Both the position numbers and the translations under genes were made by a program. Below, piece by piece: positions 14,163 through 40,100 of a stretch of DNA of 40,419 nt. Positions within the stretch are counted from its first letter, which is position 1. Each line of letters starts with the position of its first letter. Source of the DNA: Minisyncoccota bacterium (GTDB lineage: Bacteria > Patescibacteriota > Microgenomatia > UBA1400 > PJMF01); NCBI GenBank assembly GCA_009991965.1, contig JAACWQ010000003.1, positions 79,274-119,692 on the forward strand. The letters are read 5' to 3'. The notes under the pieces are model-generated. The model ran no database searches and was not told the origin of the DNA. It saw only the letters and a list, made by a program, of their open reading frames with translations.

Positions 14163-15461
14163 CTATTGTTTTGCCATCTTCTCTACAGCTGCCACAAGTG
14201 ACGAAGAGTTAAAATATGCCAGCAATTCTTGTTGCCAACCAGGTTCAGTAATATTCACATCGGGTGTAATGCCACTGCCTTCAATCGGGATGCCGTCTTC
14301 ACGCAGAGTCAAATTCTGCACGAGTAAAACTGAAAATATCTGCCCTGACTCAAACTGGTGCGTGACCGAAAAAAGCCGTTCCATCGTGCCCCAACCACGA
14401 GAAGGTACACCTACTAAGACGCCAACATTATATTTCTTGAGGGACGCTGCCATAGCCTCGGCTGACGAACCAGTCACCTGATCAATCAACACGACTACTT
14501 TTTTGAATTGTGCCAATCCTGCAAGCTTATCTGTTCGAGTCTCGAGATCTGTTTTCTGCCCCTGTTTCAGCATTTGATATGCCTTTGTCCCTGGACCATA
14601 AAATGCTCCCAAGACATTGGGCAAACCATCAATATATCCGCCTGGGTTGCCGCGAAGATCGATAATCAAACTGGTTTGCTTGGGCTGTGGTGGTACTGCC
14701 TTGAGAGCAAAAGCTATATCTTCATACGTCGTTGGCGCAAAAGAATTGAGTTGTAAGTAGTAGATATCGGTCGTAAGATTTTCGCTTGAAAGAGATGACT
14801 CCACGCCGGTTTGTGCATAACGAGATCGCTCTGCATCAGAGTCCAGCGCCTGGTATGCGCGCTCCAATGCTTGTTGCGCGTGTTTCTTTTCTTCTGGAGT
14901 TTGCTGTGACTTAGCCACCTCTTGTTGTTTTTGTTTGAAATTCTGAGCCACAACAGCAGAAGAAGCGGTTGCGTCTAACCCCAGTGTTTCGAAATAATTA
15001 GCATCTGGGTTGCGACTGGTGACGGAGTCGAGAATCTCCTGTGAATCTGATTGGCTCAATAAACGACTGCGACCAAATGGTTGGAGGTTAACTAACACTA
15101 CATTAACCACATCTGCTACCAACTTGTTTTTGCCCTCATCGTCTTCTTGCTTGACAAGTACTTCTTGCAGTGCGGTTTTTACTCCCGATAAATCTGTTGT
15201 AACTAGCTCAATCTTTTCGTTTGTAACTTTCTCGATTGCCTTTTGAAATAGCATCGCCAGTTGTTCATCAAAAAGCAATTCCCAGTGCTCTTTTTTAATC
15301 AAGGCATACACTTCATCAATAAATGCCATGCGTTCGTCTATAACAACTTGCTTTTCTGGCAGCAGACGAACAAGTAGGTTCTGCTGTATGACGACACCGC
15401 CCACCAATGAGCCGATCAAAAATATGACTAAAACGATAAAAAGACGCTTCACATGAGACAT
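14163..15461 (-). CDS. S41-like protease with an internal J-like domain
   Basis: 432 residues from MSHVKR at 15461; an upstream in-frame start would overlap mscL. One N-terminal membrane helix (about 7-25) is followed by a helical region. Residues 155-219 match a DnaJ J domain in layout (NYFETLGLDATAS, a long helix, then ALERAYQALDSDAERSRYAQTG) but lack the HPD motif. Residues 233-405 form the S41/C-terminal processing protease core with DLRGNPGG (269-276) and the nucleophile region GSSAEAMA (331-338). The catalytic Lys expected in GKG is a Trp (RGWGT, W357). No PDZ domain is visible. Probably an extracytoplasmic protease or an inactive relative. Confidence 0.75.
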   Translation of the reverse strand: MSHVKRLFIVLVIFLIGSLVGGVVIQQNLLVRLLPEKQVVIDERMAFIDEVYALIKKEHWELLFDEQLAMLFQKAIEKVTNEKIELVTTDLSGVKTALQEVLVKQEDDEGKNKLVADVVNVVLVNLQPFGRSRLLSQSDSQEILDSVTSRNPDANYFETLGLDATASSAVVAQNFKQKQQEVAKSQQTPEEKKHAQQALERAYQALDSDAERSRYAQTGVESSLSSENLTTDIYYLQLNSFAPTTYEDIAFALKAVPPQPKQTSLIIDLRGNPGGYIDGLPNVLGAFYGPGTKAYQMLKQGQKTDLETRTDKLAGLAQFKKVVVLIDQVTGSSAEAMAASLKKYNVGVLVGVPSRGWGTMERLFSVTHQFESGQIFSVLLVQNLTLREDGIPIEGSGITPDVNITEPGWQQELLAYFNSSSLVAAVEKMAKQ

Positions 15462-15492: not shown

Positions 15493-15792
15493 TTATTTCT
15501 TCTTGTCGAGCTTGTCGAGACCAAGACCGCGCACGCCAAAATATACAACAAATGCAATAACTATAAAGTTGATGAGCACAGACAAAAAGCTTCCCCACAT
15601 AATTTTGACTGGCCCAAATACCAAGGCAGCACCAGCTAAGTCTCCCGCAGCACCAAGCACAACACCCAAAACTGGGTTAATTATGTCAGTAACAAGTGAA
15701 GTAACTACTTTTGAAACCGCACCGCCCAACACAAAACCCACTGCCAATCCGACAACTCCCTGCTCGCGGGTAAAATTTAAAAAACCTTTCAT
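15493..15792 (-). CDS. mscL: Large-conductance mechanosensitive channel
   Basis: 99 residues, shorter than the 120-150 of typical MscL because the cytoplasmic C-terminal helix is reduced to LDKLDKKK. The N-terminal amphipathic helix and TM1 are clear (MKGFLNFTREQGVVGLAVGFVLGGAVSKVV), as is the TM1-TM2 stretch TDIINPVLG and TM2 (SFLSVLINFIVIAFVVYFGV). MscL forms a pentameric pore that opens at high membrane tension and releases solutes in hypo-osmotic shock. GATATT lies 8 bases upstream of the ATG and could serve as an internal -10 box overlapping the end of the nuclease gene. Confidence 0.92.
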   Translation of the reverse strand: MKGFLNFTREQGVVGLAVGFVLGGAVSKVVTSLVTDIINPVLGVVLGAAGDLAGAALVFGPVKIMWGSFLSVLINFIVIAFVVYFGVRGLGLDKLDKKK

Positions 15793-15796
15793 AGTA

Positions 15797-16663
15797 TTAT
15801 AATATCACGCTGTCTCTATTGTCTTTTTCCTCTTCTATCAATGTAAAAATGTCTTGCTTATATCCGCCCACGCCAACGTAGTGTGCTTTGCCGAGCAGAA
15901 TTTGCTCAAATGGTTGGCATAACCGACAACCCTGTTTGCCTTGTGGACAGATAAAACGCTCAAGCTTGCGCGCCACTTTGATCTTTTTTGCTATCGCAAA
16001 TACTCGCTCATGCGCTGCATCAATATCTGGCAGTACTTGTACTTCTGGTTCATCCTCCGAGTCCAAGTACCAATAACTCGCACCTGCGACTGCACGCTTT
16101 TGTGTGTACGTTGTTAAAAGTAAATAAATCGGCAACTGCAGTGAATCTGCTTTTTCTTTGTGCTTGCCCGTCTTAAAATCAAGAATTGAAACCGCGTCTT
16201 GCTCTGGCAAGTACTGCAACCAATCAATTTTGCCACACAAAATAATTTCATCTTCTTCCGACAACCAGTAGTACGGCAAATCTGCTTGCAGCTTGACCGC
16301 TTTTTCCTTGAGGGGACCAGGATTTCGCTGGACACGTTGGAGCATTTTCCTGCCACGTTCTTTATATCGTTCTTCGTCTTGATCGCTACGAAAGCCACCA
16401 TGTTCTCCAGAAATACCTTTCCAGGCATCCTCATACTGTTCGAGTAATGTGGAAGTAAAACGCTCACTCACGGGCAAAACCGACAGACTCTCTAGCACTT
16501 GATGAACCGCTTGTCCCAAGGCAAGCGAAGGTGACATGATTTGAACCTTGTGACCAGATTGTGGACTACGATACATGTTTTTGAGAAAGTACGATCGTGG
16601 GCAACTTATAAAATCGCCAATTGAACTATGTGAAACCCATGTAGCAGCAAATTTATCTGGCAT
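15797..16663 (-). CDS. PD-(D/E)XK family nuclease with four-Cys (probable Fe-S) site
   Basis: 288 residues. The PD-(D/E)XK_1 (RecB/AddB-like) nuclease core includes GQAVHQVLESL (conserved His), GKIDWL (Asp147) and LDFKTG (Asp162, Lys164) followed by SLQLPIYLLL. A single Cys21 in SCPRSYF and three Cys near the C-terminus (C239, C246, C249 in FICPQGKQGCRLC) give the arrangement that holds a [4Fe-4S] cluster in AddB and Cas4. A single-domain protein of this size without a helicase is common in reduced genomes. AAAGGG precedes the ATG. It follows the Y-family polymerase by 9 bases, suggesting a DNA-repair unit. Confidence 0.85.
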   Translation of the reverse strand: MPDKFAATWVSHSSIGDFISCPRSYFLKNMYRSPQSGHKVQIMSPSLALGQAVHQVLESLSVLPVSERFTSTLLEQYEDAWKGISGEHGGFRSDQDEERYKERGRKMLQRVQRNPGPLKEKAVKLQADLPYYWLSEEDEIILCGKIDWLQYLPEQDAVSILDFKTGKHKEKADSLQLPIYLLLTTYTQKRAVAGASYWYLDSEDEPEVQVLPDIDAAHERVFAIAKKIKVARKLERFICPQGKQGCRLCQPFEQILLGKAHYVGVGGYKQDIFTLIEEEKDNRDSVIL

Positions 16664-16672
16664 ATACCCTTT

Positions 16673-17911
16673 TTACAAGAATTGGTACTGTTTGTCACCT
16701 AAGAAGCCGGTAACTTCTGGACGAATTTTGTGTCCACCCGCAAGTATACCAGCGGTAACCGCAAACAAGCCGTAGCGCGCGGAAATCTCGTCGCAAGCTT
16801 CGGCTACCAGCTCGTCTTTTTGCCAAGCTGGTAAAAGTGGCTGCGGTATTACGCTCCATGACTGGAGCAAACTGAGGCGCACTGCCAATTTGATAACGGG
16901 AAAACGCTCACTCCACTGTTGGTACAAATGTGTATAAATCCAATAAAATAATTCTTTGGTATGCCAAATATGATGTGGCAGTGTAACGAAATTGTTCCAG
17001 TGCCTGTCACCACCAGATACGAATAAACTCACCTGCCGACCAGCCAAGTGCATGCGACGAATCTTGTGCGCCACCTCTGCTACCAGATTGTAGAGTGTGC
17101 GCTTGATCATCGCTTCATTACTACACAACCGCCAACCAGTGATAGAACGCCCAACACTTTTCATAGCCTGCGGCGGCAGCGACAATCGACGTAAAAAAAG
17201 AGGCTCATTGCCTTGTGCCATCAAACGCAGTTGGTGTGTCCAAAACAGACCGACCGCTCGCTCAAGATCAGCTTGTGGGATAAAGTTTATTTGGTAGGGC
17301 ACACTCACTCCCAAAGCTGCCAATTTTTTACCCAACCGGTGGCCAATGCCACAAGCATCGGAACACGTCGTGTTTGCCAACAGCACTGTCTCCTGCTCTA
17401 TAGACACTTCCGTAATGCTATCTGGCAAAGCTGTTTCGCTAGCCAACTTTGCCAAAAAACGCGTCCGAGCAATTCCAATGTTGCATGTTACCCACTCACC
17501 CAACGCTGCAAATATTTCCGCTCGTATTTTTTGTGCAAATTCTAATGGCGAAGCATACAACCTATTGAGCGGCGTAAAGTGAATGAACGACTCATCGAGC
17601 GAAAACAACTCCGACGTCGGAGTAAACGATTCGAATAACGTCTTTAATTTACTCGTAGCCGACCAACACAGTGCAAAGTCAACTGGTACTACTACTATCT
17701 GCGGCACTGTTTTTTGAACCATAGGCAAAGAACTCCCCGTGCGAATACCCAATGCTTTTGCTTCCTTGGAAGCGGCAATAATACAAGTACGACCGACGTC
17801 CTTGACCACCGCCAACGGCCTACCCCGCAGCGCCGGTGTCTCTTGCTGGAGCAGCGTTGCAAAGTATGAATTGATATCAATGTGCAAATAAACGTCTGAC
17901 TGATTACTCAC
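16673..17911 (-). CDS. Y-family DNA polymerase (DinB/UmuC/ImuB-like)
   Basis: 412 residues from a GTG at 17911, which overlaps the stop of the preceding small gene (GTGAGTAA). Palm motifs are intact: HIDINSYFATL (Asp12; Tyr16 as probable steric gate) and SLDESF (Asp106, Glu107). The helix-hairpin-helix region appears as DACGIGHRLGKKLAALGV. The little-finger domain follows and the C-terminal tail (TAGILAGGHKIRPEVTGFLG) is specific to this form. The protein should copy damaged DNA. The adjacent DUF6504-like protein and the downstream nuclease suggest a small lesion-bypass cassette. I leave the symbol blank because DinB and ImuB-type assignments cannot be separated here. Confidence 0.88.
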   Translation of the reverse strand: MSNQSDVYLHIDINSYFATLLQQETPALRGRPLAVVKDVGRTCIIAASKEAKALGIRTGSSLPMVQKTVPQIVVVPVDFALCWSATSKLKTLFESFTPTSELFSLDESFIHFTPLNRLYASPLEFAQKIRAEIFAALGEWVTCNIGIARTRFLAKLASETALPDSITEVSIEQETVLLANTTCSDACGIGHRLGKKLAALGVSVPYQINFIPQADLERAVGLFWTHQLRLMAQGNEPLFLRRLSLPPQAMKSVGRSITGWRLCSNEAMIKRTLYNLVAEVAHKIRRMHLAGRQVSLFVSGGDRHWNNFVTLPHHIWHTKELFYWIYTHLYQQWSERFPVIKLAVRLSLLQSWSVIPQPLLPAWQKDELVAEACDEISARYGLFAVTAGILAGGHKIRPEVTGFLGDKQYQFL

Positions 17912-18149
17912 ACCACACCTCTTCCAGCAACCAAGTTTCCTCTGTGCGATCAAAGACTAATCGATATGAATTGCTATCGGCAACACAAGAATAGCGGCGC
18001 TCTCGCACCTGACCATCACGAATATCAGTCACGCTCGTGATATCTGCTATCTGGTGAACGCGATCCTTCCACAAAAATTTCTTGGGGGTAAAACAAGCAT
18101 GATTATAGACACCGACGACCGCTACAGCTTCGTGTATTGTTTGGTACAT
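17904..18149 (-). CDS. Small protein, DUF6504-like, coupled to Y-family polymerase
   Basis: 81 residues. The pattern FTPKKFLWKDRVHQIADI, RRYSCVADSNSYRLVFD and WLLEEVW resembles DUF6504 proteins, which in actinobacteria are encoded beside the ImuB/DnaE2 mutasome genes (my recollection of the family, not a search result). Its stop codon overlaps the polymerase GTG start, so both should be translated from one mRNA. TACAGT at 18157-18162, 7 bases before the ATG, would make the mRNA leaderless. Confidence 0.55.
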   Translation of the reverse strand: MYQTIHEAVAVVGVYNHACFTPKKFLWKDRVHQIADITSVTDIRDGQVRERRYSCVADSNSYRLVFDRTEETWLLEEVWCE

Positions 18150-20244: not shown

Positions 20245-20487
20245 ATGCAACGCGGAGTCATCATATTTACCAAAGAAGAATCGCTGGAGCTTAACCAATT
20301 GACGCAAGCAAATGAAGCTGCGCCCGCACTTCTCCAACAAAAATTTGCAAACGAAACACAAGACGCAGCGAACTATGAGCTCTCAGTCGAAGAGGTTAAT
20401 TGGCTACTCGATCAACTCCCAACTCCCCAAAATTCTACAGAAATTCAAAATAACATTCGCACAAAATTATACGCGTTTCTTGCCTAA
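20245..20487 (+). CDS. Small hypothetical helical protein
   Basis: 80 residues, family not recognised. Sequence is mainly polar and helical (KEESLELNQLTQANEAAPALLQQKFANE, YELSVEEVNWLLDQLP) with no membrane segment. The ATG sits 6 bases after TACACT, and its last 21 bases overlap the end of the converging signal peptidase gene. It could be a small regulatory or adaptor protein, but nothing proves this. Confidence 0.5.
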   Translation: MQRGVIIFTKEESLELNQLTQANEAAPALLQQKFANETQDAANYELSVEEVNWLLDQLPTPQNSTEIQNNIRTKLYAFLA

Positions 20488-20997
20488 GCTCGAACGCAAG
20501 CTACCGAGTTCGTCTGAAACAATAATTGTGGCCGGTACAATTACCAGTAAAATAATTCCAGCTGTACTTTTGGCAAAGCTAACAAAAAAACCAAGTTTTG
20601 GCACCACAAACTGCACCTTACCCACCACATTTTCGAGCGGTACGAACTCAATATCTATTGAACGGTTTGCATCCCCTTTGGTGAGAAAAATTGTTTTGCC
20701 ACTTTGAGCTTGAACGTCGGTAATTCTGTGTGTGATGACACGCTTCTTTTGGTCCCGAAAAGTAATAACATCATTGAGAGAGTACTGCATTTCTGGACGA
20801 ATCAAAATAATATCGCCCGTCATGATACTCGGCTCCATAGAACCAGACTGTACGACATATGATGCAAGCGGCGGCTGAAAACCAGATTTTAAGACCAAAC
20901 GAAAGATAAGCAACACTATGCCAACACCCAATATGACCCACACTGTCGTGAGCAGGATTTTTGAAAATGAGAGTTTTTGTTTTCTTCTGCTGCGCAT
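20467..20997 (-). CDS. Signal peptidase I, SipW/archaeal type (second copy)
   Basis: 176 residues. One N-terminal membrane helix (about 13-34) precedes the catalytic SGSMEPSI (nucleophile Ser53) and GDIILIR. The base is His90 in VITHRI rather than the Lys of classical bacterial LepB, which marks the ER/archaeal SipW type. A C-terminal helix (about 147-165) closes the protein. In Bacillus SipW processes TasA-type fibre proteins. It lies 12 bases downstream of a TasA-like gene, and is the last gene of the cluster. Confidence 0.9.
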   Translation of the reverse strand: MRSRRKQKLSFSKILLTTVWVILGVGIVLLIFRLVLKSGFQPPLASYVVQSGSMEPSIMTGDIILIRPEMQYSLNDVITFRDQKKRVITHRITDVQAQSGKTIFLTKGDANRSIDIEFVPLENVVGKVQFVVPKLGFFVSFAKSTAGIILLVIVPATIIVSDELGSLRSSLGKKRV

Positions 20998-21009
20998 GTA
21001 CTTCTCGCT

Positions 21010-21642
21010 CTAGACCGGCACTTGCTCCAGGTCAAAGACGACGTCAAAAATAATACTATCGGATTGAATTCCGTTTTCAAATGAGCTTGCGTCACTCGAC
21101 CAAGTAAGTTGCACTTCAACACTATCGCCTGCAGGCAAGCTAACTGTTCCCGCATTGGTCAGCCACTGGAGTGCAAAATTATCTTGCGAGCCTGGTCCCA
21201 ACGTAGTAACGATAACTGGATCGGGGTGCACACCGTCGTCAAGTAAAACCTTCGCAGTAATAACCACTCCGAGCTCTCCCTGGTCGGTTCCAGGATTTTC
21301 ACAGGTGACGTCGACCAAGGCCTCTGGCTCATTACATCCATTTTCGTTATTAACCAAATTCACTACACTCATCGAGAGTTCTCCGGGCAGAGAACCAACA
21401 TTGGTAATTTTCCACGTTTTGCCACCCTCCAGCGAATTAGGCGAACCGAAGTTGGTGACACTAATACTCTCGGCCACCGAGCCATTGCGCGCTGTCAGAT
21501 CCATGTCGAGCGTACCGACAACAAATTGGCTTGTGTCGGAGGTCTCAGTGTCGCGAAATAAACTCTGTGTTAGCGTATATCCGACAATTGCCAAGGTAAA
21601 AGAAATTACAAAGATGCTTTGGATAACCTTGTGTTCTTTCAT
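21010..21642 (-). CDS. TasA/camelysin-like secreted fibre protein
   Basis: 210 residues. The signal region ends in LTQSLFRDTETSDTSQFVVGTLDM, the SipW-dependent pattern also seen in TasA and CalY. The mature part is beta-rich. It shares a block with the protein at 22819-23445: GGKTW.I.N.G..PGELS, then NGCNEPEA.VD.TC and a late ADSVEVQLTW-like strand, so the two are paralogues, each with a Cys pair. A strong Shine-Dalgarno AGGAGG lies before the ATG, inside the end of the upstream gene. It should be cleaved by SipW and assembled on the surface. Confidence 0.82.
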   Translation of the reverse strand: MKEHKVIQSIFVISFTLAIVGYTLTQSLFRDTETSDTSQFVVGTLDMDLTARNGSVAESISVTNFGSPNSLEGGKTWKITNVGSLPGELSMSVVNLVNNENGCNEPEALVDVTCENPGTDQGELGVVITAKVLLDDGVHPDPVIVTTLGPGSQDNFALQWLTNAGTVSLPAGDSVEVQLTWSSDASSFENGIQSDSIIFDVVFDLEQVPV

Positions 21643-21645
21643 ATT

Positions 21646-22236
21646 TTAACCTCCTGTGCTCCATGTGCCTGCAGTCACTTGGTTTTGCAGGATTTCTTCA
21701 TCCGAAAATCGTACAACCGCACCGCCCGCCACTTGTTTTGACGCCACTCGTATATTGAACGCGCAGGTGTCATTGGTCAAGCTATTACTCGTATCATCTA
21801 AACTGACCACAAACACGAGATCACCTTTTTGACCCTCCAGCACAGTCGCATCAAAACTCAGGCCGAGCAAAGAACCAGAATACTCAGTTTGCCAATCCGA
21901 CATGACCCGCAACTGCAACGCATTACAAAAGTCTGTATCACCTGCTGTCTGAGTTGCTGACAGTTCATAGGAAACTGCAAGCTCTCCTTCGTTCTTTATC
22001 CGTACAGACTCAACTTGAAATCCAGTTGGGATAAGACCCTGCACCGAGAAAAATAATGACTTGCCTGTTTCATTTGCGGTGTCACGATTGCTAAAATCGA
22101 GCGTGGTGGCACGAACAATATTGGCAGTCACTTCCTCGCGATCGAGTAAGTCTGCATCTGTAACTTGACTAAAAAGAAGTATCACAGCGGTTGCGAGGAG
22201 TAGTCGAGCTGCTTGTTTGATTTTAGAAAATAGCAC
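21646..22236 (-). CDS. Secreted TasA-cluster protein, more divergent
   Basis: 196 residues. One hydrophobic N-terminal helix (about 10-24) is followed by a beta-rich exported part beginning DADLLDREEVTANIVRATTLDF, whose spacing resembles a SipW-dependent leader, though weaker than in the two paralogues. Cys residues (FCNAL and NDTCAF) could form a disulfide. It lies 6 bases after sipW copy 1 and 3 bases before the next TasA-like gene, whose ribosome site it contains. Probably a minor or anchoring subunit; the function is inferred from position. Confidence 0.6.
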   Translation of the reverse strand: MLFSKIKQAARLLLATAVILLFSQVTDADLLDREEVTANIVRATTLDFSNRDTANETGKSLFFSVQGLIPTGFQVESVRIKNEGELAVSYELSATQTAGDTDFCNALQLRVMSDWQTEYSGSLLGLSFDATVLEGQKGDLVFVVSLDDTSNSLTNDTCAFNIRVASKQVAGGAVVRFSDEEILQNQVTAGTWSTGG

Positions 22237-22242
22237 ATCTGT

Positions 22243-22752
22243 CTACTCTTTTTTTTGTAGCTTCTGCCATACGAAGTCACTTATAAACCAAGCGGCAAAT
22301 AAACTCACAATAATTGTTATGCCCATGAACGAGCGCATATAAACAAGAATGTAACCAAGTTTGGGAATGGTAAACCAATGCGTGCCAAACACTCGCTTGG
22401 GTGGTGTCGTGTATTGGTCTGGATCTTCGTTATTATCTCCCTTGGTAATAAATTCGAGAGAACCATTGGGTTGTTGCTCTGTCCTAATAATTCTGTGGGT
22501 GACGATGTGCCCCTTTGGATCTTGAAATGTAATGATCGTATTGGGTCCAAAACCACGATTGGTGCGATCAAAAATAAGATCTCCAGTCATGATGGTAGGC
22601 TCCATCGAACCAGATATCACAATGAACGTGCGAAAGGGCAGTTTGGAGTCGGGTCGCTCTGAGAACGAATTGACTACCGAAAACGCAATGACGATGACAA
22701 GTACCGTCCAAAAAATAAAATTCCAAATTGCTTTGAGTATTGTCAAGATCAT
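22243..22752 (-). CDS. Signal peptidase I, SipW/archaeal type (first copy)
   Basis: 169 residues. An N-terminal helix (about 8-28) is followed by SGSMEPTI (Ser49) and GDLIFDR, with His86 in IVTHRI as the expected general base. The later motif TKGDNNEDPD is the conserved box D/E of this family. A C-terminal membrane helix precedes WQKLQKKE. It is separated from the upstream TasA gene by a long hairpin. It is only modestly similar to the second copy, so the two may have different substrates. Confidence 0.9.
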   Translation of the reverse strand: MILTILKAIWNFIFWTVLVIVIAFSVVNSFSERPDSKLPFRTFIVISGSMEPTIMTGDLIFDRTNRGFGPNTIITFQDPKGHIVTHRIIRTEQQPNGSLEFITKGDNNEDPDQYTTPPKRVFGTHWFTIPKLGYILVYMRSFMGITIIVSLFAAWFISDFVWQKLQKKE

Positions 22753-22766
22753 CTGTTTTTTCTACC

Positions 22767-22798
22767 AATGAGGGGAGAACAATCGCCCTCCCCTCATT
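22767..22798 (-). promoter_or_regulatory. 11-bp perfect hairpin between tasA-like gene and sipW
   Basis: Arms 22767-22777 (AATGAGGGGAG) and 22788-22798 (CTCCCCTCATT) pair perfectly around a 10-base loop. In the operon mRNA the stem is followed by TGGTAG and A residues, not by a U run, so it is not a standard terminator in that direction; the plus strand has five T after it. Likely roles are 3' end protection of the tasA part of the mRNA or partial attenuation, so that the fibre subunit is made in excess over the peptidase. Confidence 0.6.
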
Positions 22799-22818
22799 TT
22801 TACAAACTAGCTACTCAT

Positions 22819-23445
22819 CTATACAGATGGGATCACTTGCACCAAGTCGAACTGCAGCTGAAAGGTCAGTCCGTCGCTCTGGATCTCATTCCCGTAGGTA
22901 CTAGGATCAGTTGCCCAATTCATCGTGACATCTACGCTGCCGCCAGCAGGGATGGTTACGGTACCCGCATTGCTCACCCATTGCGAGGCATACAGCGCCT
23001 GACTTGCTGTTGCTAGGTTTGCACTCACAACTGGTACATCACCAGCACCGGTATCAAGCAAAATGGTGGTGGTTGTTGCTGCACCGAGATCACCCTCACC
23101 AGCACCGCATGTATTATCTACAATTGCCTCTGGTTCATTACAACCATTGTCATCATTGACAAGATTATTCATAGAAAGTGTCAATTCTCCAGGAACAGTG
23201 CCGGTATTGACGATCGTCCATGTTTTACCACCACTCACTTGACCATCAACTCCAAGGTTGGTAAAACTAAACTCTTCAAAGGCTGTGCCATCTGCGCCAC
23301 CCACAGTCATATTGAGCGTGCCAGCTGTAAATACGTTCGATGCACTCTGTTCTACGTCAGAGAACAGTGCCCGGGTAGCAACAACACCCGTTGCTCCAAT
23401 TGCTCCAACGCCAAGAATGGCGAGTAGGACTTTTTTATTATTCAT
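22819..23445 (-). CDS. TasA-like major secreted fibre protein
   Basis: 208 residues from MNNKKV at 23445, with AAGGGG as ribosome site 7 bases upstream; an extended start at 23511 is unlikely. The leader (1-25) is followed by RALFSDVEQSASNVFTAGTLNM, a close match to the SipW-dependent signature in TasA and CalY. The mature part is a beta-rich, acidic, Gly/Thr-rich domain with a Cys pair (NGCNEPEA and DNTC). As the first gene, before the hairpin, it is probably the most abundant product of the cluster. The likely role is a surface fibre or pseudopilus-like coat. Confidence 0.85.
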   Translation of the reverse strand: MNNKKVLLAILGVGAIGATGVVATRALFSDVEQSASNVFTAGTLNMTVGGADGTAFEEFSFTNLGVDGQVSGGKTWTIVNTGTVPGELTLSMNNLVNDDNGCNEPEAIVDNTCGAGEGDLGAATTTTILLDTGAGDVPVVSANLATASQALYASQWVSNAGTVTIPAGGSVDVTMNWATDPSTYGNEIQSDGLTFQLQFDLVQVIPSV

Positions 23446-23752
23446 TGGGGTTACCCCTTCTTCAGCTATATTCTTATATTCTAGGTCAATATACTTTTGA
23501 TATATCAGCACAACCTAGGATGTAAGAACTTACTTATTACATATTCAATCATTATTTAATGCGTACACAGTTAATATCAAATACGTAATAAAGGTTGATT
23601 TAGTAGCGTATTGATGCTGTTACAGACAATAATAATTGATTTATACTCTGTGCAAGTAATAGGGTATGCTTTTCGAGATTAAGATGTCAACTACTTCATA
23701 CTATAACAAATAATATAAGATACTTTATATTCTTTGTTGTAGCAAGAAAAAA
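23446..23752. promoter_or_regulatory. AT-rich regulatory spacer before the TasA cluster
   Basis: Three hundred bases without a supported gene and much richer in A/T than the flanks. It contains the 10-base palindrome TGATATATCA (23498-23507) enclosed by the inverted repeat CTAGGT (23481-23486) / ACCTAG (23513-23518). This nested symmetry close to the start of tasA looks like an operator. I cannot assign -35/-10 boxes with confidence because several TATA-like strings overlap. Confidence 0.45.
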
Positions 23753-39014: not shown

Positions 39015-40100
39015 TCATTCTAGCAACTTCAAGAACTTGTCAAAATAATAAACCTTTTCCTTAGTTTTACTTTCTGCTATCTTTAATATCCCTTCATTCT
39101 CTAAAGCGTTCATATACTCTAGTGCAGTTTTATTGCTTCGTATCTGAGTGGATTCCATCAATTTATTTTGGGTATAAAAAGCGTTTGAAAATATATACGA
39201 CAAAAGTTCTTGAGAGTAGGTGAAATTAAATTTTGGCAAAACCTCACCTTTAAACCATTCTCGGAGTTCTAATATTTTCAAAATAGTACTGTTCGTCTCA
39301 GTTGCTTGTGTTTCGGCTGCATCAAGAATAAACAAAATCCATTCCTTCCAGTTATCATTGTACGTAACTTCTCTTAAGAGTCTGTAATACTCGCTTCTAT
39401 TTTGATTTATATACCTACTAATAAATAATGTCGGAGATACTAAACAATTATGGACTACGAGATGTAATACCATCAAAATTCTGCCCGTTCTCCCATTTCC
39501 ATCGAAAAATGGGTGAATAGCTTCAAATTGATAATGAAGTACTGCCATCTTAATCAAGTAGTCAGGATCATTTGACTGATCATTATAATAATCTTCGAAA
39601 TTTTTAAGCAGATTTCTTAAAAGTTGATTTCCCTCTGGAGGTGTGTAATAAACCTCTCCCGTTTGACGATTTCCTATTTTGGTTCCTGGTAAATTTCTGA
39701 CACCTGGGTGTTGTAAGCCTAATTCTCTCTGAATTTCAATAAAATCGTTAGTTGTCAGAAAACTTCTTTTTTGCACCTGGTTAAACCCAAAAAGAAGGGC
39801 CTTCTTATAGTTTTTAGTTTCTTTCTGCTCTGGGCTAAGTTTCTCTGCTGAAAATAGTTCCGCCTGTAAAGCTTCTGAGACAGTAGTATTGATATTCTCA
39901 ATTCCAGAACTTTCTACAGCTTCTTTAACTTTTAAAGGTTCCAAGATCATTTCTGGATTTTCCAATGATCTAATCAAGCCATTTAATTGAGAAATAGCTT
40001 TATTAGCAGTAATAACTTTTTTTAGAATATCTATATCATCAAGATTTGACTGTGGTGGTAATTTGGGAAGTTGATTGTGGGGTAAAGTTTTGTCTAACAT
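39015..40100 (-). CDS. Fic family protein (AMPylator type) with winged-helix C-terminus
   Basis: 361 residues. The Fic core contains H196-P-F-F-D-G-N-G-R-T-G-R, the full catalytic motif for transfer of AMP. The N-terminal inhibitory helix motif (S/T)xxxE(G/N) is S64-S-G-I-E-N69, placing it in class II Fic proteins that are self-inhibited until Glu68 is displaced. The last 80 residues look like a winged helix (LLSYIFSNAFYTQNKLMES, RSNKTALEYMNALENEGILKI), suggesting DNA binding. TATACT with TTTACA upstream precedes the ATG by 8 bases. Its targets are unknown. Confidence 0.93.
   Translation of the reverse strand: MLDKTLPHNQLPKLPPQSNLDDIDILKKVITANKAISQLNGLIRSLENPEMILEPLKVKEAVESSGIENINTTVSEALQAELFSAEKLSPEQKETKNYKKALLFGFNQVQKRSFLTTNDFIEIQRELGLQHPGVRNLPGTKIGNRQTGEVYYTPPEGNQLLRNLLKNFEDYYNDQSNDPDYLIKMAVLHYQFEAIHPFFDGNGRTGRILMVLHLVVHNCLVSPTLFISRYINQNRSEYYRLLREVTYNDNWKEWILFILDAAETQATETNSTILKILELREWFKGEVLPKFNFTYSQELLSYIFSNAFYTQNKLMESTQIRSNKTALEYMNALENEGILKIAESKTKEKVYYFDKFLKLLE

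Follow-up and report, generated by a model that had tools for sequence, protein, structure and literature searches.

The window, the whole stretch of 40,419 nucleotides analysed here, encodes a protein in which a J fold occupies the slot of a PDZ domain, on what is predicted to be the outer side of the membrane, and in which the S41 active site has been rewritten in a coordinated manner, without variation among some 50 Patescibacteria-type genomes. Carboxyl-terminal processing proteases (CTPs) are as a standard regulated by a PDZ module, and J domains are regarded as recruiters of Hsp70. The architecture, the homology, and the substitutions together with their invariance are established at the level of sequence, and on this basis the task of the family is probably one different from ordinary proteolysis. 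The protein may well be an extracytoplasmic CTP paralogue in which J has taken the place of PDZ and serves as a lid or for docking, and which has a rebuilt, non-cutting site for binding a ligand, that is, a pseudo-protease. The family thus makes two matters testable, the regulation of a protease fold by a J domain lacking HPD and the role of an S41 site substituted with Trp and Glu. No description of a fusion of J domain and S41 was found in the literature searched, the coverage of which excluded most subscription journals.

Gene and domain organization

The features of the gene are as follows.

15461..14163, minus strand: J-domain/S41 protein gene, ATG start, 432 aa, stop included (translation, PF03572, about 50 homologues)
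15378..15443, minus strand: transmembrane helix at the N-terminus, residues 7-28 approximately, with a predicted N-in/C-out topology (Kyte-Doolittle 3.04 over 19 residues)
15015..15329, minus strand: helical region, residues 45-149, with a CtpB_N-like start and then the family motif
14790..14999, minus strand: J domain without HPD, residues 155-224 (PF00226 in homologues, PDB profile match, AF2, Foldseek)
14253..14765, minus strand: S41 protease-like core, residues 233-403 (PF03572, CTP structures 7rpq and CtpB)
14457..14468, minus strand: nucleophile loop S332-S333-A334-E335, Ser332 being at the position of CtpB Ser309 by alignment
14379..14399, minus strand: altered lysine loop R355-G-W357-G-T-M-E361 (Lys to Trp, Gln to Glu, Phe to Arg/Lys)

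The S41 core that the original prediction assigned to this open reading frame, with correct residue numbering and the strand unstated, was recovered by the Pfam Peptidase_S41 model (PF03572) with E=5.7e-27 and 94.8 bits against a cut-off of 24; the best NCBIfam model was prc (TIGR00225), far under its cut-off. The genome from which the window comes (0.85 Mb, 94% complete, with genes for bL9 and uL30 not found) has a second S41 gene, which encodes an ordinary CTP with a PDZ domain and the GKG motif. The lack of bL9 and uL30 agrees with the Patescibacteria named in the original prediction and with a Microgenomates-like lineage. This CTP is arranged as CtpB_N-like region, PDZ and core, and the family as N-terminal helix, CtpB_N-like helices, J and core, so that the J domain occupies the PDZ slot, between membrane helix and S41 core, as had been proposed from the window sequence. 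The CtpB_N-like start was recognized by PF22694 weakly in the family (7.9e-5 in L006) and with 3.2e-8 in the CTP of the same genome. Residues 125-134 form a family motif, N-L-x-P-x-G-R-S-(R/G)-L, in which R131 and S132 are each conserved in 50 of 51 rows. When the N-terminal helices were aligned with those of CTPs profile to profile, the result was ambiguous, and the GRS motif was not equated with the DPYT/DPH motif of CTPs.

An N-terminal membrane helix preceded by basic residues was present in 48 of the 52 family rows, the other four being mostly cut by contig ends, and a hydropathy scan of the family found no second membrane helix. From a helix with a basic N side, the J and S41 parts are predicted to be located outside the cytoplasm.

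Distribution and ancestry

A search with a profile covering the N-terminal part, the J domain and the beginning of the core, corresponding to the survey of other Patescibacteria for the same architecture that was suggested at the outset, detected family members in 49 of the 374 genomes of the class and in three genomes of other classes within the phylum (G525, G546 and G657). The 49 comprise 48 genomes matching at E of 8e-24 or lower and G089, the member of which lacks the J domain and matched at 3e-17. Among the 88 genomes of the order, the full-length members numbered five with the window protein, at E of at most 1e-83 compared with at least 1e-15 for CTPs. Three members (L047, L062 and L049) are split into two overlapping frames near the nucleophile/oxyanion region, which may reflect assembly frameshifts or pseudogenes. 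In the contig scan the only copy was one of 84% identity in MAG casp150-mb.307, and no relatives were found in the viral collection.

Regarding ancestry, structures of CTPs are matched by the family profile (7rpq, 1.1e-17; CtpB 4c2h, 2.2e-17), and in a maximum-likelihood tree the family forms one side of a branch with support of 100/100 against five CTPs. The two nearest outsiders that were read, L084 and L085, are CTPs with GKG and have HMM scores far under those of family members, and the family searches yielded no intermediate, whether a PDZ protein with GWG or a J protein with GKG. By these matches and this tree, the 432-aa protein is an S41 protein of CTP ancestry belonging to a family separate from the CTP of its own genome.

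Active site

Conservation was counted over the rows of the family alignment and over 23 ordinary CTPs of the same class. Ser332 and E335 are each present in 51/51 family rows and 23/23 CTPs, in agreement with the nucleophile loop GSSAEA first read in the window protein (G331-S332-S333-A334-E335), and the oxyanion loop is retained with N272, G274 and G275 invariant and D278 in 52/52 rows. Four other positions differ between the two groups. The Lys of GKG, found in all 23 CTPs, is Trp357 in all 49 readings of the family, as had been noticed in the RGWGT of the window protein; the Gln four residues further on (23/23 CTPs) is Glu361 (49/49); the Phe of all 23 CTPs at position 355 is Lys in 34 rows, Arg in 14, one of them that of the window protein, and Met in one (L007); and the helix Asp at position 343 (21 of the 23 CTPs) is Lys in 43 rows, Arg in six and Asn in one. 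According to the alignment, the active site is rebuilt by four coordinated replacements with Ser and the oxyanion glycines kept, and a site that had simply decayed would not show such strong conservation of its nucleophile and oxyanion loops.

CtpB has the triad Ser309-Lys334-Gln338 and loses all activity on the substitution Q338E (PMC3808539); in CtpA of P. aeruginosa K327A likewise kills activity and Phe325, two residues before the Lys, lies on the substrate path (PMC11021448). Given these mutants, the replacement of Lys by Trp and of Gln by Glu indicates that CTP chemistry could not operate as known.

The family may still be a hydrolase with new chemistry, in which Ser332 would be activated by the carboxylate of Glu361, perhaps together with Arg131 or Lys/Arg355, and the J domain would gate access; this is unlikely on present evidence yet stays well alive, because Ser332 (51/51), the GG oxyanion loop, Glu361 (49/49) and R131 (50/51) are unchanged across homologues of 30-40% identity. 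The invariance of Ser332, the GG loop and Glu361, which would be unneeded in a pure binding protein, fits some catalysis and counts against a pseudo-protease. Sedolisins use Ser-Glu catalysis and offer a precedent. Against such a mechanism, Glu at the position of Glu361 inactivates CtpB, although Lys is present in that enzyme, and the available models of the site are too poor for geometry. The more specific form, an active S41 hydrolase with a new catalytic center in which Glu361 is the base for Ser332, tuned by Arg131 and Trp357, and with the HPD-less J domain gating access, is somewhat less probable. If the new-catalysis reading were true, a J fold would have been recruited as an extracytoplasmic protease regulator.

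A lysine that has moved two residues, from xFGKG to xKGWG, with the basic residue 355 as base, has little probability. Position 355 is predominantly basic, and in an extended strand, side chains two positions apart can point to the same side; however, Arg, a poor general base, stands there in 14 rows, the window protein among them, and Met in L007. The universal ionizable residues of the family are R131 (with one Lys), E361, E335, D268, D278 and nearly K342, and the alignment contains no universal Lys or His that could serve as base. K342, the sole nearly universal lysine of the nucleophile region, was also considered as a relocated catalytic Lys, which is unlikely since K/R occurs there in 19 of the 23 ordinary CTPs as well. 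The alignment of the lysine position across homologues, put forward in advance as a means of refutation, thus revealed no conserved active-site Lys elsewhere, the position two before Trp being K, R or M.

Slightly less probable again is a triad Ser332-His382-Glu394 in most members, resembling the Ser-His-Glu of other S41 enzymes, with the His lost in the genus of the window. His stands at position 382 in 42 of the 49 rows, E394, a position inferred from the alignment, is present in 47 of 48 readable rows, and the CPAF model matches residues 320-412. In seven rows from several branches, however, H382 is replaced by Q, E, N or S, with Gln in the window protein, and Ser332 remains invariant; furthermore, in known Ser-His-Glu S41 enzymes the catalytic His is supplied by the N-terminal part.

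J domain

The J-like segment of the window protein (residues 155-215) matches PF00226 with 15.5 bits and E=0.019, below the cut-off of 27.8 bits. In the first family set all five members gave a match, one of them above the cut-off, and of nine family members scanned singly six passed it (L041, 37.4 bits; L007, 36.9; L087, 35.6; L089, 32.6; L065, 31.8; L091, 29.2), so that chance resemblance is rejected. The same family-profile search that matched CTP structures also matches J-domain structures (2och, 1.1e-11 at profile positions 155-220). In genome searches, the J segment of the family profile brings in real proteins of DnaJ size, about 290 aa long. The genome encodes one true HPD-bearing DnaJ above the cut-off, which the J-segment profile matched with 57 bits, and the window segment is its only other PF00226 match.

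Structure prediction gave a whole AlphaFold model, built on a two-sequence alignment, with a mean pLDDT of 45, the J part being best with values up to 85 and containing helices at 154-159, 168-184, 189-205 and 209-218. Credible Foldseek matches of the whole model, a long and poor query, were J domains (probability 1.00, E at least 0.05). Modelled alone, the J segment had a mean pLDDT of 70 and again matched J domains (probability up to 0.99, E at least 0.14). The original prediction had set the absence of J-domain helices as a ground for refutation, and these helices are present. The HPD motif was absent from every family member examined. Helices II and III are joined in the family by a shortened loop, which is shorter still in several members. 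On these profile and model matches the segment is a true J-domain homologue, and its early description as J-like at residues 155-219 without HPD extends to the family as a whole.

In L083 (G089:C17, ORF 1563-2591 minus) the whole J domain is missing cleanly, with NRNPETGIVEPTI joining both flanks, while GRS, Ser, GWG and Glu are kept; this clean loss points to a module at a domain boundary that was dispensable at least once and is not required in every member.

True J-domain homology could suggest a functional co-chaperone able to recruit Hsp70, a very improbable role considering that HPD is absent in all members, that the II-III loop is shortened, and that the domain comes after the membrane helix and is predicted to lie outside. 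A reading of the segment as diverged PDZ, or as helices that resemble a J domain by chance, which the sub-threshold Pfam score of the window copy by itself might suggest, is scarcely credible in view of homologues above the cut-off, J structures at 1e-11, Foldseek matches to J domains and the lack of a PDZ match in any family member scanned.

Constraint and gene neighborhood

When the window gene was compared with its 84% relative, pN was 0.05 in the core, 0.09 in the J domain and 0.14 in the N-terminal part, and synonymous sites were saturated (pS about 0.8), which indicates purifying selection on all parts and most on the core.

No widely shared neighbor genes were found outside one taxonomic family, and the neighborhoods gave no pointer to a ligand or pathway. 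In that family the neighbors are a divergent TerC-like gene, Fic and a membrane glycosyltransferase-like gene. A TerC/Alx-like membrane protein gene, identified by eye, is divergent at a distance of about 20-120 bases in L116, L117, L119-L122, L124-L128 and L132, and a Fic-like protein, also identified by eye, is encoded close to J-S41 in one taxonomic family other than that of the window (L116-L121, L123-L128 and L132). The window likewise has a gene for a Fic-domain protein (39015-40100, minus strand), and the occurrence of Fic genes both here and beside J-S41 elsewhere is probably a coincidence. In L103 and related loci, from a few related genomes, the J-S41 gene is adjoined by genes for GroEL and GroES (by eye), which are on the opposite strand.

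In the window, the stop of the MscL gene (15493-15792) is 31 bases ahead of the S41 gene. Just upstream of these two genes, a gene for a PD-(D/E)XK (Cas4-like) nuclease lies beside one for a Y-family DNA polymerase (15797-16663 and 16673-17953, minus strand). Further on (20467-23511, minus strand), two signal-peptidase-I-like genes, one with a weak Peptidase_S26 match (20467-20997) and one recognized by eye only (22243-22752), alternate with genes for small secreted proteins, the N-termini of which resemble TasA/CalY with SipW-type signals, with no Pfam match.

Proposed function

The pseudo-protease that we favor would be a paralogue of the CTPs that is itself anchored by a single N-terminal membrane helix, with the remainder outside the cytoplasm, and in which the ancestral PDZ module was exchanged for a J-fold module. 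That module has kept its packing residues and lost HPD and the basic face of helix II, so that recruitment of cytosolic Hsp70 should fail; most likely it would flank the substrate cleft as a structural lid or a surface for docking, like PDZ in CtpB. The Ser-Lys-Gln machinery has been rebuilt (Lys to Trp357, Gln to Glu361, Phe to Lys/Arg, helix Asp to Lys/Arg) with Ser332 and the oxyanion glycines staying in place. CTP-type proteolysis should be impossible in such a site, and we infer that the conserved pocket most likely holds a peptide end or other ligand uncut, as in RBP3. The full-length AF2 model is too poor for the geometry of the pocket or the position of the lid.

Comparison with known systems

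With the S41A CTPs (B. subtilis CtpB, P. aeruginosa CtpA and E. coli Prc/Tsp) the family shares the S41 core, the CtpB_N-like helical start, the Ser nucleophile loop, the GG oxyanion loop and, as predicted, the extracytoplasmic place. It differs from them in having J for PDZ, a domain said to be present in all CTPs (PMC11021448), in the replacements of Lys by Trp, Gln by Glu, Phe by Lys/Arg and Asp by Lys/Arg, and in the GRS motif, which is specific to the family. The S41 members with Ser-His-Glu (tricorn and CPAF) have in common with it a Glu in the corresponding part of the C-terminal region (E394) and no Lys at the GKG position, whereas the family is without a universal His and no tricorn or CPAF N-terminal domains were recognized in it. 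Compared with J-domain proteins of the DnaJ/CbpA type (PF00226), the J fold, the packing residues and the pattern A-Y-x-x-L...Y-D are shared, but the family J domain is without HPD, has a shorter II-III loop, is predicted to lie outside the cytoplasm and forms an internal part of a protease-like fusion protein. Retinol-binding protein 3 (IRBP), an S41 fold with lost catalytic residues that serves as a ligand carrier (PMC11750400), is matched by the family profile and likewise exemplifies the fold unused as a protease; RBP3, however, consists of four modules and carries retinoids, while the family has an invariant Ser332, a J domain and a membrane anchor.
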